Assembly: GCF_001975665.1 (NCBI RefSeq)
Contig: NZ_CP019419.1
Span: 2,897,501 to 2,961,500 of the forward strand
Length of the DNA stretch: 64,000 nt
Direction of reading: 5' to 3'
From: Polaribacter reichenbachii
Lineage (GTDB): Bacteria > Bacteroidota > Bacteroidia > Flavobacteriales > Flavobacteriaceae
Made by a program: the position numbers and the translations under genes. Below, piece by piece: positions 7,678 through 13,831 of the stretch. The notes beneath the pieces are model-generated. The model saw only the letters and a list, made by a program, of their open reading frames with translations. It ran no database searches and was not told where the DNA came from. The first letter of the stretch is position 1. Each line of letters starts with the position of its first letter.

Positions 7678-9531
7678 ATGTTAGAATTAGCAGGTATCAT
7701 CATTTTAGGAATATTGGCACAATGGGTGGCTTGGAAATTTAAAATTCCTGCCATTTTACCTTTAATCTTAATTGGTTTATTAGTAGGGCCAATAGCTGCT
7801 GAATTTTTAAGCGATGATGGTTCTAAATGGATAGAACCAATTTGGAATGGTGAAAAAGGATTATTTCCTGGAGAGAGTTTGTACTATTTTGTATCGCTAG
7901 CCATTAGTATTATTCTTTTTGAAGGAGGTTTAACTTTAAAAAGGAGTGAAATTAAAAATGTTGGTCCCGTAATTACAAAATTAATTACACTAGGTTCTGC
8001 AATTACATTTTTTGGAGCAGGTGTTGTAGCACATTATATATTTGGTTTAGGTTGGGATCTTTCTTACCTATTTGCAGGTTTAATTATAGTTACAGGACCA
8101 ACAGTTATTACACCTATTTTAAGAAACATTCCGCTAAAAAAGGATATATCTACAGTTTTAAAATGGGAAGGAATTTTAATAGATCCTATTGGTGCTTTAG
8201 TGGCAGTATTGGTTTTTGAGTTTATAAGTGTTGGTGGAGGTGGTGGTTTTACCAAAACTGCATTAATTGAATTTGGTAAAATTTTATTATTCGGTACTAC
8301 CTTCGGATTTACGTTTGCGCACGCTTTAGCATATTTAATCAACAAAAAAATGGTACCTCATTATTTGCTAAATGTAGTTTCATTATCATCAGTATTAATG
8401 GTTTTTGTTTTATCAGAATTATTTGCACATGAATCTGGTTTATTAGCAGTTGTAGTTATGGGGATGGTTTTGGGTAATGGTAAACTAAAAAACTTAAAAG
8501 AATTGCTTTACTTTAAAGAATCCTTGAGTGTTTTATTAATATCAATTCTGTTTATTTTATTGGCAGCAAACATTAATATGAAAGATTTATTGTTGTTATA
8601 TACTTGGAAAACAGCCTCTTTATTTGCCATTGTTGTATTTATTATAAGACCATTAGCAGTTTTTGCAAGTACTTATAAATCCAAATTAAAATTAAACGAA
8701 AAACTTTTCATCAGTTGGGTTGGGCCAAGAGGTATTGTTGCAGCAGGTATTGCTTCTTTATTTGGAAGTAAATTATTAAAACAAGGCGTAGAAGGTGCAG
8801 AGTACATTACACCTTTAGTATTTATGATTGTTTTAGGAACCGTACTTTTAAACGCAACCACAGCAAGATTATTTGCTAAAATGGTAGGTGTTTTTCTAAA
8901 AAGATCGAACGGAATTTTAATTGTTGGTGCTTCTAAACCTGCAAGATTAATTGCTGCTTTTTTAACCAAAAAAGGCAAAAGAGTAGTTTTAATCGATTCT
9001 AATAAAAACTTTATTGAAAAAGCTACAGAAAATGATTTAGAAGCTTTTAATGTAAATATTTATGATGATGAATTAACCGATAATATTGAATTAAATGATG
9101 TTGGATATTTAATTGCCTTAACAGGTAATGATTCTGTAAATAGGTATGCATTAAATAATTTCTCTAAAGTTTTTGGTGAACACGGTTCGTTTAGATTAGC
9201 ATCTTCTACAGAAGTTAGTGATGCAACAGAAGAGGAAAAATATGGCTTCTTTACACCAAAAGACGATTATATTAATATGAGTGAAGCTTTTAGGGAAAAT
9301 CCTAATATTACTGAGGTTAAAGTCGCTAATGAAGTTGAATATCAGAATATTTTAGATACTTTAGAAAAAGAAGAAAAGGCAATTCCTTTATTTATACAGA
9401 ACAAAAAAGGGATTTATTTAATAGCCGAATTTGAAAAAGCAAAACAAGAAAAGAAAGATTTAGTGTTATCTTATTTAGGTAAAGATATTGGTGATGCTTA
9501 TAAAATTGAAGAAGAAAAATTAGAAGTCTAG
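7678..9531 (+). CDS. CPA-type cation:proton antiporter with TrkA-N domain
   Basis: A 617-residue membrane protein. Residues 1 to about 410 form the Na+/H+ exchanger domain: many hydrophobic helices, LFEGGLTLK, the ITGPTVITPILR-like stretch VTGPTVITPIL, and ISWVGPRGIVAAGIASLFG. A Rossmann-type TrkA-N/RCK domain follows (about 415-530; ILIVGASKPARLIAAFLTKKGKRVVLIDSN), which usually binds NAD(H). It probably exports Na+ or K+ in exchange for protons. It is divergent from the UspA-SulP operon. The last 12 bp overlap the 3' end of dnaX, which is read on the other strand. Confidence 0.92.
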   Translation: MLELAGIIILGILAQWVAWKFKIPAILPLILIGLLVGPIAAEFLSDDGSKWIEPIWNGEKGLFPGESLYYFVSLAISIILFEGGLTLKRSEIKNVGPVITKLITLGSAITFFGAGVVAHYIFGLGWDLSYLFAGLIIVTGPTVITPILRNIPLKKDISTVLKWEGILIDPIGALVAVLVFEFISVGGGGGFTKTALIEFGKILLFGTTFGFTFAHALAYLINKKMVPHYLLNVVSLSSVLMVFVLSELFAHESGLLAVVVMGMVLGNGKLKNLKELLYFKESLSVLLISILFILLAANINMKDLLLLYTWKTASLFAIVVFIIRPLAVFASTYKSKLKLNEKLFISWVGPRGIVAAGIASLFGSKLLKQGVEGAEYITPLVFMIVLGTVLLNATTARLFAKMVGVFLKRSNGILIVGASKPARLIAAFLTKKGKRVVLIDSNKNFIEKATENDLEAFNVNIYDDELTDNIELNDVGYLIALTGNDSVNRYALNNFSKVFGEHGSFRLASSTEVSDATEEEKYGFFTPKDDYINMSEAFRENPNITEVKVANEVEYQNILDTLEKEEKAIPLFIQNKKGIYLIAEFEKAKQEKKDLVLSYLGKDIGDAYKIEEEKLEV

Positions 9532-11486: not shown

Positions 11487-12140
11487 ATGAAGCTACTAAA
11501 ACCTATTTTATCAATTGCCTTTTCTTTTTTATTAATTTCTTGTTTTAGCTTTTCGAAAAAAGAAGAAAATGAAACATTAATAAAAACATACAAACCCAAT
11601 AAAAATACTAAAGTTGCTTATTTCGCAAGCGGATGTTTTTGGTGTGTAGAAGCCATTTTTGAAAGTGTAGCAGGAGTAGAAGAAGCAGTTTCTGGTTATG
11701 CAGGTGGAGAAACTAAAAACCCAACTTATCAATCTATTGGAACAGGAAAAACTGGGCACGCAGAAACTGTAGCAGTATATTACAACCCTAAAGAAGTAAG
11801 TTTTGAAACTTTAGTAACCGTTTTTTTTGGATCACATAATCCTACTACTAAAAACGGACAGCATCCAGATTATGGAACTCAATATAGATCCATTGCTTTT
11901 TATCAAACGGAAAAAGAAAAGAAAATTATAGAAGATAAAATTGCTAAATTAAATAAAGAAGTTTACGATGGTAAAATAGTAACAGAAGTAACCCAACATA
12001 GTAAATTTTACGAGGCTGAAGAATATCATCAAGACTTTGAAAAAAGAAACCCAAATCAAGGTTATGTAAAAGCGGTTTCGATTCCTAGATTAAATAAGTT
12101 TAAAAAGAAATTTCCAGAGTTATTAAAAGAAAAAAACTAA
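11487..12140 (+). CDS. msrA: Peptide-methionine (S)-S-oxide reductase, lipoprotein form
   Basis: MsrA reduces methionine-S-sulfoxide in oxidised proteins. The catalytic motif GCFWC is at residues 49-53 with Cys50 as the nucleophile, followed by the family signatures GYAGG and NPTTKNGQHPDYGTQYRS. An N-terminal signal with a lipobox (LLISC, Cys19) indicates a lipoprotein, so this copy repairs envelope proteins rather than cytoplasmic ones. Length is 217 residues, the extra being the export signal. It stands alone, with a stable leader hairpin upstream and the repeat element of the accessory insert just downstream. Confidence 0.95.
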   Translation: MKLLKPILSIAFSFLLISCFSFSKKEENETLIKTYKPNKNTKVAYFASGCFWCVEAIFESVAGVEEAVSGYAGGETKNPTYQSIGTGKTGHAETVAVYYNPKEVSFETLVTVFFGSHNPTTKNGQHPDYGTQYRSIAFYQTEKEKKIIEDKIAKLNKEVYDGKIVTEVTQHSKFYEAEEYHQDFEKRNPNQGYVKAVSIPRLNKFKKKFPELLKEKN

Positions 12141-12166
12141 ATTTTATTAGGATTTGATCTTGGAAT

Positions 12167-12281
12167 ACGTGTATGGTTAGTAGCGTGTTTCAGCAACTAA
12201 TTTAGTAAAAATGAAACAAATCAGAGGAAATTCCTTAGGAATTTCCAATTAGGCTAGAATTCAGCAATAGATTATACACGT
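12167..12281. repeat. Structured intergenic element with nested inverted repeats
   Basis: An element of about 115 bp whose ends, ACGTGTAT (12167-12174) and ATACACGT (12274-12281), are exact inverted repeats. Inside is a perfect hairpin GGAAATTCC-TTA-GGAATTTCC at 12226-12246. No ORF is present. I believe similar sequences recur in flavobacterial genomes, but this is from memory and was not searched. It lies between msrA and the three-gene insert and runs straight into the left inverted repeat of that insert. Confidence 0.6.
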
Positions 12282-12296
12282 TGTTGGCAAACGTTT
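12278..12296. repeat. Left inverted repeat of the three-gene insert
   Basis: ACGTTGTTGGCAAACGTTT. Apart from two extra bases it is the reverse complement of the sequence at 13816-13831, so the toxin-antitoxin-chaperone genes are enclosed by an inverted pair about 1.5 kb apart. Confidence 0.6.
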
Positions 12297-12408
12297 ATTT
12301 GTTGAAAAGATGTTAAGAATTCTTTAAATAATTCACTTATAAGTTAATTTATTTTAATAATCTTTGCAAATCTAAAATGAATAGTTTAATATTGTACTTA
12401 ACTTAAAA

Positions 12409-12909
12409 GTGAATTCCAGTCGAGAGATAATTGTCGAAATTTTTGAAGAACATACTGAAGTCAATTTCTATTCAATCAGATATGCTGATAAGGAATTTTC
12501 TGAAGCAGAGTGTTTTTTCAATGAAGTTTTAGATAATGATGGTCTGGAAGAAGACATTGAAATTTTATCAAAACTAATAGATAGAATAGGTGAAAATGGT
12601 GCAGAACCAAGACATTTTAGGAACGCAGGGACAAGACGAGACAAGGTCGCAGCTTTACCTGAATATCTTTCAAGTACTAGCTTGAGGTTATATGCTATAA
12701 GACTAAATGAAAAAATAGTGATTCTAGGAAATGGAGGAATTAAAAACACAAAAACTTACAATGAAGACCCCTTTTTAAATCAATGTGTTGAAACATTAAA
12801 GAAAATTGATCGTTTTATTGATAGTCGCATACAAACTGGCAAGACTATTGTATTTAGAAAAGAATTAATGGGTGATTTAAAATTTTACATTAAAAATGAA
12901 AAAAAATAA
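12409..12909 (+). CDS. Putative RelE/HigB-like toxin of a TAC module
   Basis: A 166-residue protein with a GTG start. I see a remote RelE/ParE-superfamily pattern: FYSIRYADKEFSEAECFF (about 19-36), a long helical stretch, RHFRNAGTRRDKVAALPEY (about 64-82), then the strand pair LRLYAIRLNEKIVILGNGG (about 87-105), which occupies the place of the usual YRILYF...IVLLHGF core, and a final helix. It is longer than typical HigB toxins (about 90-125) and lacks the KK after the last strand. The next gene is an XRE-type protein whose ATG lies 14 nt inside this ORF, the toxin-first order of HigBA. The toxin call rests on order and faint similarity; the RNase activity is inferred. Confidence 0.6.
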   Translation: MNSSREIIVEIFEEHTEVNFYSIRYADKEFSEAECFFNEVLDNDGLEEDIEILSKLIDRIGENGAEPRHFRNAGTRRDKVAALPEYLSSTSLRLYAIRLNEKIVILGNGGIKNTKTYNEDPFLNQCVETLKKIDRFIDSRIQTGKTIVFRKELMGDLKFYIKNEKK

Positions 12910-13312
12910 GATATTAGACAAAATACGAAAGTATCGCTCTAAATACGTTGATATTTTTGTTGATTATACATTTGATTTATCTAATAGAATTCAGTTCCTA
13001 CTTGAACAAAAATCTATGGATCAAAAGGATTTAGCAAAGGCTTTAGGCAAAAATGAGTCAGAAGTAAGTAAATGGCTGTCTGGTTCACATAATTTTACTT
13101 TAAAGACTGTTGCTAGAATTGAAGATATTTTGGGTGACAAATTAATTGAAATTGTAAATGAAAAACCTCTTCAAAAAGAGGAAAAAGTTTGCGTTTATTT
13201 TATTAATTCTGACCAATTATATACTCCTAGAAATTATAATCCATTAAAAGAGAGAGTTCCATTAAAAAAATATTCACAAAATTACAGAAATACAGTATTG
13301 GCTGATTGTTAA
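12896..13312 (+). CDS. XRE-type HTH antitoxin with C-terminal tail
   Basis: A 138-residue protein. Residues 30-86 form a helix-turn-helix: IQFLLEQKSMDQKDLAKALGKNESEVSKWLSG with the recognition helix near 54-62. The N-terminal 25 residues are basic. After the HTH about 50 residues remain (LQKEEKVCVYFINSDQLYTPRNYNPLKE...), rich in Tyr and Phe, with no known fold. In TAC systems such as HigBA1 of Mycobacterium tuberculosis the antitoxin carries a C-terminal chaperone-addiction segment at this place; I infer the same role here. It overlaps the toxin gene by 14 nt and is followed after 3 nt by the SecB-like gene. It probably represses its own operon. Confidence 0.75.
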   Translation: MKKNKILDKIRKYRSKYVDIFVDYTFDLSNRIQFLLEQKSMDQKDLAKALGKNESEVSKWLSGSHNFTLKTVARIEDILGDKLIEIVNEKPLQKEEKVCVYFINSDQLYTPRNYNPLKERVPLKKYSQNYRNTVLADC

Positions 13313-13315
13313 GTT

Positions 13316-13804
13316 ATGAATAAAAAAAATGAGGGTTTTGGCGTGAAAATTCAAGAAATCAAAGAGATTTCTTTTTCTAGTAAAGTCACAGATGATTTAA
13401 TAGAAAACTTTGATGATGAAAATGTTGAAATCAAATTAGGGTTTTCTGTTAGAGGTGATTTTGAGAAGAATATACTTTTTATTGGTGTAATTGTACACTT
13501 TTATTCTAATCAAAGCACCAAGCATAAGGAATTTTTAAAATTAGAAACCAGCACATCATTTAGTGCCCTAAATTTTACTGATGATGATATTAAGTTTATT
13601 GACGGAAATAAAGAAATATTCATTAATGATGAACTAATGTATGTGTTCTTGAGTACAGCAATTGGTGCTACTCGAGGAATGTTAGCATATAAAATTGCAA
13701 GTCTTCCAATAAATATTTGCTTGCCTATAATAGATATGGATCAACTAATTCCTAAAAATAAAAAGAAACCTAGTAAACAGACTCAGAAAAAAGCAAAAAA
13801 GTAA
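13316..13804 (+). CDS. SecB-like chaperone of a TAC module
   Basis: A 162-residue protein that I align by eye over its whole length with SecB. VKIQEIKEISFSS matches the SecB start FQIQRIYTKDISFEA. VEIKLGFSVRG...ILFIGVIVHFYSN...KEFLKLETSTSFSA matches the two long strands. VFLSTAIGATRGMLAYKIASLPINICLPIIDMDQLI (about 110-145) matches the SecB ending [28 protein letters not shown]. A lysine-rich tail follows. No secA-linked context exists; its partner is the antitoxin gene 3 nt upstream. Solitary SecB homologues next to HigBA-type pairs are known to protect the antitoxin (TAC systems). Similarity is remote but consistent; a structure prediction would settle it. Confidence 0.72.
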   Translation: MNKKNEGFGVKIQEIKEISFSSKVTDDLIENFDDENVEIKLGFSVRGDFEKNILFIGVIVHFYSNQSTKHKEFLKLETSTSFSALNFTDDDIKFIDGNKEIFINDELMYVFLSTAIGATRGMLAYKIASLPINICLPIIDMDQLIPKNKKKPSKQTQKKAKK

Positions 13805-13815
13805 CTGCTTTAGTC

Positions 13816-13831
13816 AAATGTTTGCCAACGT
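13816..13831. repeat. Right inverted repeat of the three-gene insert
   Basis: AAATGTTTGCCAACGT, the inverted partner of the sequence at 12278-12296. It begins 12 bp after the stop codon of the SecB-like gene. Confidence 0.6.

Follow-up and report, generated by a model that had tools for sequence, protein, structure and literature searches.

The three genes at positions 12409-13804 of the window, by which we mean the whole 64,000-nucleotide stretch of Polaribacter reichenbachii DNA analysed here, are best read as a HigBA-type toxin-antitoxin-chaperone (TAC) module that forms a gene cassette within an integron-like system, a reading to which we assign a probability of about 0.8. The TAC part is well supported by the anatomy of the genes and by predicted folds, from which we infer the mechanism, and the integron-like carriage is the more surprising of the two results. 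All three open reading frames lie on the plus strand, with an overlap of 14 nt followed by a gap of 3 nt, a packing that had been claimed in the initial annotation and that the ORF coordinates confirm. The trio is flanked by an msrA-like gene and a convergent TonB-receptor-like gene, both named by eye.

12409..12909, plus strand: gene 1, putative toxin with HigB/RelE fold, GTG start, 166 aa (ORF, homologues, predicted fold)
12896..13312, plus strand: gene 2, putative XRE-type antitoxin with a long C-terminal tail, 138 aa (ORF, HTH_3, PADLOC)
13316..13804, plus strand: gene 3, putative chaperone with SecB fold, 162 aa (ORF, homologues, predicted fold)

The initial annotation had likened the order toxin, antitoxin, SecB-like chaperone to that of the Mycobacterium TAC system. 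The adjacency of the genes, the HTH_3 domain of gene 2 (E 8.3e-9), which bears out its earlier description as an XRE-type HTH protein, and the predicted HigB/RelE and SecB folds of genes 1 and 3 all support that likeness, and adjacent genes of these three kinds are what marks a TAC system. In the accessible text of two papers (PMC5105189, PMC9098466), HigBA1-Rv1957 of Mycobacterium tuberculosis shares with our trio the order toxin, XRE antitoxin and SecB-like chaperone, as well as a HigB fold, a long antitoxin tail and a SecB-fold chaperone, the folds on the Polaribacter side being predicted ones. The Polaribacter proteins differ in having about 10% identity to these counterparts in structure alignments, in that the toxin and the chaperone have no significant Pfam match, and in being encoded within an integron-like cassette. 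Models of PDC-M64, a candidate defence system in PADLOC, match all three genes (gene 1 at E 8e-48, gene 2 at E 1.4e-31 and gene 3 at E 2.7e-5), with no one-to-one correspondence between the PADLOC names M64A, B and C and genes 1-3. A literature search that covered no preprints and only a minority of subscription papers found no paper naming PDC-M64. The link between antitoxin tail and chaperone and the cassette, both described below, are what the present analysis adds to this candidate system.

Gene 1 had been credited with a faint RelE/HigB core, and structure alignment of its predicted model does show a HigB/RelE (BECR) fold, with extra strands outside the aligned core, while a Foldseek search returned weak hits (best E 6.9e-3). 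Sequence searches were less informative. Of 231 candidates, 171 proved to be relatives at E<=0.01 (the window's own protein included), but no Pfam or NCBIfam model was matched above its curated cut-off. The Gp49/HigB profile PF05973 does not match the window's protein and is touched by 3 of 88 homologues (best E 0.02); the unrelated family PF04384 is touched by 14 of the 88 (best E 0.033). Against solved structures, the sequence gave two weak matches, both to MecA (E 1.4 and 1.5), and the gene-1 profile gave none. Arg 93 and Lys 112 are invariant across the 88 aligned homologues, and their alignment to HigB is weak (5.4% probability). The KK motif that the initial annotation had reported missing from the toxin is therefore only partly so: the position after Lys 112 varies, whereas Lys 112 itself, whose assignment as the first lysine of the motif rests on that weak alignment, does not.

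By its fold, the product of gene 1 would most likely stop translation by cutting mRNA on the ribosome. It is possible, though we think it doubtful, that within a genuine TAC module the toxin instead re-uses this fold against another target and is no ribosome-dependent RNase. RelE-fold toxins do have varied targets, according to the accessible part of one source (PMC11980606), the additional strands lie beyond the aligned core, and the counterpart of the basic R68 of the mycobacterial toxin appears, in a weak alignment, to be an invariant Pro 84. Against this, R93 and K112 are kept in every aligned homologue, and the nearest folds of known target are those of ribosome-dependent RNases. The phage records searched contained no gene-1 relatives, and the plasmid records contained two distant ones. 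One relative lies on a 62-kb Bacteroides thetaiotaomicron plasmid (NZ_CP103284.1, 59700-60158) with 33% identity over 93% of the protein.

The SecB likeness claimed for gene 3 held at the level of structure and failed at the level of the sequence profile. The structure prediction and comparison with SecB that had been proposed for it were run and found a SecB fold in the predicted model. In contrast, the SecB profile PF02556 does not match the window's protein, and one of 23 diverse gene-3 proteins touches it (E 0.15). The CmdC model is touched by 7 of the 23 (best E 0.01). Of 82 candidates, 38 proved to be relatives at E<=0.01, again counting the window's own protein; no Pfam or NCBIfam model was matched above its curated cut-off, and the gene-3 profile found no match among solved structures.

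A census of whether the trio occurs together had also been called for. Of 333 gene-1 loci in species-level genomes, the best 80 were examined, and the answer differs between the two partners. Gene 2 follows gene 1 in 78 of the 80, the exceptions being L018 and L072 (in L068, the end of the contig cuts the locus), whereas gene 3 is found in 17 of the 80 and not in the remaining 63, counts in which more diverged gene-3 copies could be missed, since the search profile was built from the window copy and a set of candidates, and in which five of the 63 (L015, L024, L034, L055 and L068) lie on contigs that end too early to tell. In one locus, L077, two tandem antitoxin-like genes (8477-8743 and 8755-9021) stand behind a single gene-1 relative.

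The presence of the chaperone gene goes with the length of the antitoxin tail, measured as the residues from the WxxG[ST]H motif onward. With the chaperone, the tail has 65-91 residues (median 78, 18 cases including the window); in 55 loci without it, the tail has 26-63 residues (median 40). Eight rows in which the motif or the antitoxin could not be read were left out of this comparison, and the two ranges just miss overlapping, with L039 and L047 at 65 and L012 at 63. As the loci are related to one another, the comparison is given as ranges and medians, and a Mann-Whitney value was set aside. A C-terminal antitoxin extension that accompanies the chaperone, a further mark of TAC systems, is thus found in this family. 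In the accessible portion of Bordes et al. 2016 (PMC5105189), such an extension confers chaperone dependence and is transferable. The longer tail in the company of a chaperone is the pattern that would be expected of chaperone addiction, with few independent changes behind it. Mapped onto a tree of gene 1, presence or absence of the chaperone takes at least three changes, one of which is forced by well-supported branches, and independent pairs for comparing tail with chaperone number one on starred branches and three in all, too few for an independent test of the association. One locus, L009, is placed among chaperone-bearing loci by weakly supported branches and has a tail of 55; a search there for remnants of a chaperone gene found none. 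Some members of this one toxin-antitoxin family have a chaperone and others lack it, and the antitoxin tail changes accordingly, so the family offers a way to test how chaperone addiction arose.

These data also bear on whether the module might be a two-gene HigBA pair behind which the SecB-like gene serves protein export or another general task rather than the antitoxin, which we regard as improbable. Two-gene forms evidently exist, as the 63 loci lacking gene 3 attest, and the P. reichenbachii genome has no PF02556 SecB, which leaves a general role open to gene 3. It also means that gene 3 has no recognisable general SecB alongside it in the genome. However, PF02556 is likewise missing from 36 of the 39 genomes searched (own included; it is present in 3), so most of them manage without such an export chaperone, and gene 3 begins 3 nt behind gene 2 and, in the set examined, was found only with long-tailed antitoxins.

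As a TAC module, then, the trio would work as follows. Gene 2 would neutralise the toxin and repress the operon through two operator-like arms around the promoter, and its long C-terminal tail, which co-occurs with the chaperone, would make it dependent on the SecB-like product of gene 3. Were the chaperone drawn away, for instance by phage proteins as reported for CmdTAC, the antitoxin would decay and the toxin would act; loss of the cassette would likewise let the antitoxin decay and the toxin act. The proposed autoregulation of the operon by the antitoxin is suggested by the layout of the upstream region, in which two 18-nt inverted arms, 94% complementary, surround an element that we take to be promoter-like from its agreement with the Bacteroidota consensus.

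12330..12347, no strand assigned: operator-like arm on the upstream side, forms an inverted repeat with 12398-12415; five loci keep it in slightly altered form (putative function)
12363..12394, plus strand: promoter-like TTTG-N20-TAATATTG (read from the sequence)
12398..12415, no strand assigned: downstream operator-like arm, overlaps the GTG start, kept in five loci (putative function)

CmdTAC, also listed as PD-T4-9, has the same three-gene TAC layout with a SecB-like chaperone, and CmdTAC and MqsRAC act in phage defence, as given in the accessible text of the sources (PMC11618068, PMC9519451). The CmdTAC toxin is there an ADP-ribosyltransferase, unlike gene 1 with its predicted HigB/RelE fold. 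In three genomes of the same genus as the window (L083, L085 and L086), PF02556 SecB-like genes stand beside small ORFs. The neighbours in L085 (1745-2323) and L086 (2088-2654) resemble ADP-ribosyltransferases by eye, although Pfam names neither so, and CmdTAC-like modules may therefore occur in the genus.

The evidence that the module is a cassette begins with its ends. The sequence GTTGGCAAACGTTT at 12283-12296 has a near-perfect reverse complement at 13816-13829, and the two bound the module:

12130..12168, plus strand: 39 nt that recur behind a transposase gene of the IS110 family at another place in the genome; they start within the end of the msrA-like gene (by eye)
12165..12302, plus strand: copy of the attC-like repeat next to the unit, into which its match extends past the unit start (profile match)
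12284..12292, plus strand: left unit core TTGGCAAAC (matched inverted core)
13820..13828, minus strand: right unit core, reverse complement of the left core (matched inverted core)

The same ends bound the module in L003, L004 and L006, and in L005 the core is slightly different and again matches itself, so that matched unit ends are found in all five chaperone-bearing Flavobacteriaceae loci (window, L003, L004, L005 and L006). The other 13 chaperone-bearing loci, all from outside Flavobacteriaceae, showed no ends of this kind within 300 nt. A chance match as the origin of the end motif was considered and dropped, given that the exact motif occurs four times in the genome against none for a reversed control and that it bounds the same trio elsewhere.

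An attC-like repeat of about 120-130 bp, present in at least 70 copies in the P. reichenbachii genome, accompanies these ends. L003 carries the module within a run of five one-strand repeats, and L004 has four strong one-strand repeats, though not immediately at the ends of the unit. A single copy is present in L006 and in the window, and L005 has none of this repeat family. Relative to the repeat, the trio in the window, and likewise in L003, L004 and L006, is oriented opposite to what is usual for cassette genes. The outer end of the window's repeat is truncated, unlike that of other copies, and joins the 39 nt (12130-12168) that also occur at the end of an element of the IS110 family (L135), and the cassette may for that reason be stranded at its present site. 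Insertion elements that target attC sites exist. For an empty-site test, 13 stretches from relatives beside the msrA-like gene were compared with the window's TonB-receptor-like gene, and none matched it.

One could instead take the repeats for interspersed palindromic or transposon-like elements (of MITE or REP type) rather than cassette recombination sites, with the module not mobile at all, and the end motif lends this some weight: allowing 2 mismatches, it occurs four times in the window against 4.1 expected by chance. The arrays elsewhere in the genome make such an explanation quite unlikely in our view. A profile search located 69 further copies in five fetched clusters (36, 7, 11, 8 and 7), all on one strand within each cluster. 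Among 64 neighbouring repeat pairs, 47 units had ends that our script could read, and in 33 of the 47 these ends matched over at least 8 nt (35 over at least 6 nt); shuffled unit ends reach 6 nt in 3.7 units on average and 11 at most. ORFs of at least 80 aa between repeats (59 units) comprise 16,685 residues in one orientation versus 1,560 in the other. The longest array is adjoined by a gene for a 397-aa tyrosine recombinase that points into it, and the first repeat predicts a first-unit start, TTACCTACA, that is located 112 nt past the end of the recombinase gene, where it would be an attI-like site. These features, and those that follow from other genomes, speak against dispersed palindromes. 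Four further genomes of the genus contain 27, 22, 25 and 33 repeats, in each case all on a single strand. Of their 99 units, 45 had ends matched over at least 8 nt (with shuffled ends, 1.5 on average and 6 at most). In three of the four genomes, the predicted start of the first unit follows the recombinase at a distance of 104, 128 and 104 nt. In the fourth it was not found, which is in turn a point for palindromic elements.

The association of recombinase and repeat was followed across genomes. Of 57 genomes of the genus (own included), 53 yielded the repeat, as did 1 of 37 others, in a sample where this genus alone stands for its family; the cassette context thus ties TAC systems to an integron-like platform whose repeat is present in most of the genomes searched in one genus. 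A recombinase match at E<=1e-60 was obtained in 41 of the 57 and in 7 of the 37, and the repeat was not found in those seven (G063, G070, G073, G076, G082, G087 and G091), whose recombinases may serve other repeats. Within the genus there are 46 recombinase matches, and in 29 of these the contig also bears a listed repeat. For 21 of the 29, the closest such repeat is no more than 60 kb away, always downstream and on the same strand; for the other eight it is further off, which favours the MITE- or REP-like explanation. These distances are upper bounds, since the list covers part of the repeats.

What the genomes carry is, as far as sequence can tell, integron-like and not a canonical integron, a wording we adopt because the recombinase fails the IntI model, few cores fit the consensus and the consensus fold is weak, three points that also count towards dispersed palindromic elements. 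With 224 vs 220 bits, the recombinase clears the cut-off of NF040815, a general NCBIfam model, and with 193 vs 265 bits it falls under that of the IntI model TIGR02249. Profile positions 179-238, presumably about where the additional domain of IntI is expected, face about 18 residues of the recombinase, so an IntI integrase with that domain was not found. The integron core consensus is GTTRRRY, which 2 of 33 well-matched cores fit. The window repeat folds better as DNA than its shuffles (z -3.3), and the consensus fold of 15 copies has a long-range stem in which 7 of 19 pairs are kept through changes on both sides, but its energy is weak (-5.5 kcal/mol). Nevertheless, two other marks of integrons are present: a one-strand repeat array with units of matching ends and, in the form of the predicted first-unit start, an attI site beside the recombinase.

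Chromosomal integrons, as portrayed in the accessible text of four sources (PMC8618304, PMC9668308, PMC2426708, PMC9024848), likewise have a recombinase, an attI-like site, long one-stranded arrays of units with matched ends, and cargo of toxin-antitoxin and defence genes. The Polaribacter system differs in its recombinase, which fails the IntI model with the additional-domain stretch unmatched, and in its cores, which match over 8-9 nt with few fitting the consensus. Bacteroidota integrons have been reported before, according to what is accessible of three of these papers (PMC8618304, PMC9668308, PMC2426708), and the accessible part of the IntegronFinder 2.0 survey (PMC9024848) gives for this group Chlorobi, Ignavibacteriae and, in Bacteroidetes proper, one complete integron, in Salinibacter ruber. 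No description of the present type of array was found in our literature search, which is weak evidence of absence given that most subscription papers and all preprints lay outside it. Chances are about even, in our estimate, that the trio belongs to the cargo of an undescribed integron-type system of Flavobacteriaceae that extends through the genus. An Xer/IntI-like recombinase lacking the IntI domain would drive this system, which would use palindromic unit cores of about 9 nt in place of GTTRRRY and bank defence and toxin-antitoxin genes. Chaperone-addicted cassettes, which have a promoter of their own and are transcribed against the array, would help to prevent the loss of arrays. If a recombinase without the IntI domain does move these cassettes, integrons would have to be defined and searched for more broadly.

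To describe the cargo, we scanned 66 of 74 array ORFs together with the three window genes; the eight left out include seven in the minority orientation. Among the matches listed (the first 25 families of 81 and of 51), which record presence rather than enrichment, are defence-like AbiEi, AbiEii, SoFic, a type IV restriction enzyme and PADLOC candidates, as well as TIR, SLATT and putAbiC domains. In the P. reichenbachii genome, large arrays lie at about 3.695-3.748, 3.012-3.026, 3.322-3.374 and 3.403-3.414 Mb (L107-L115) and consist of single-gene units, several of which are defence-like.
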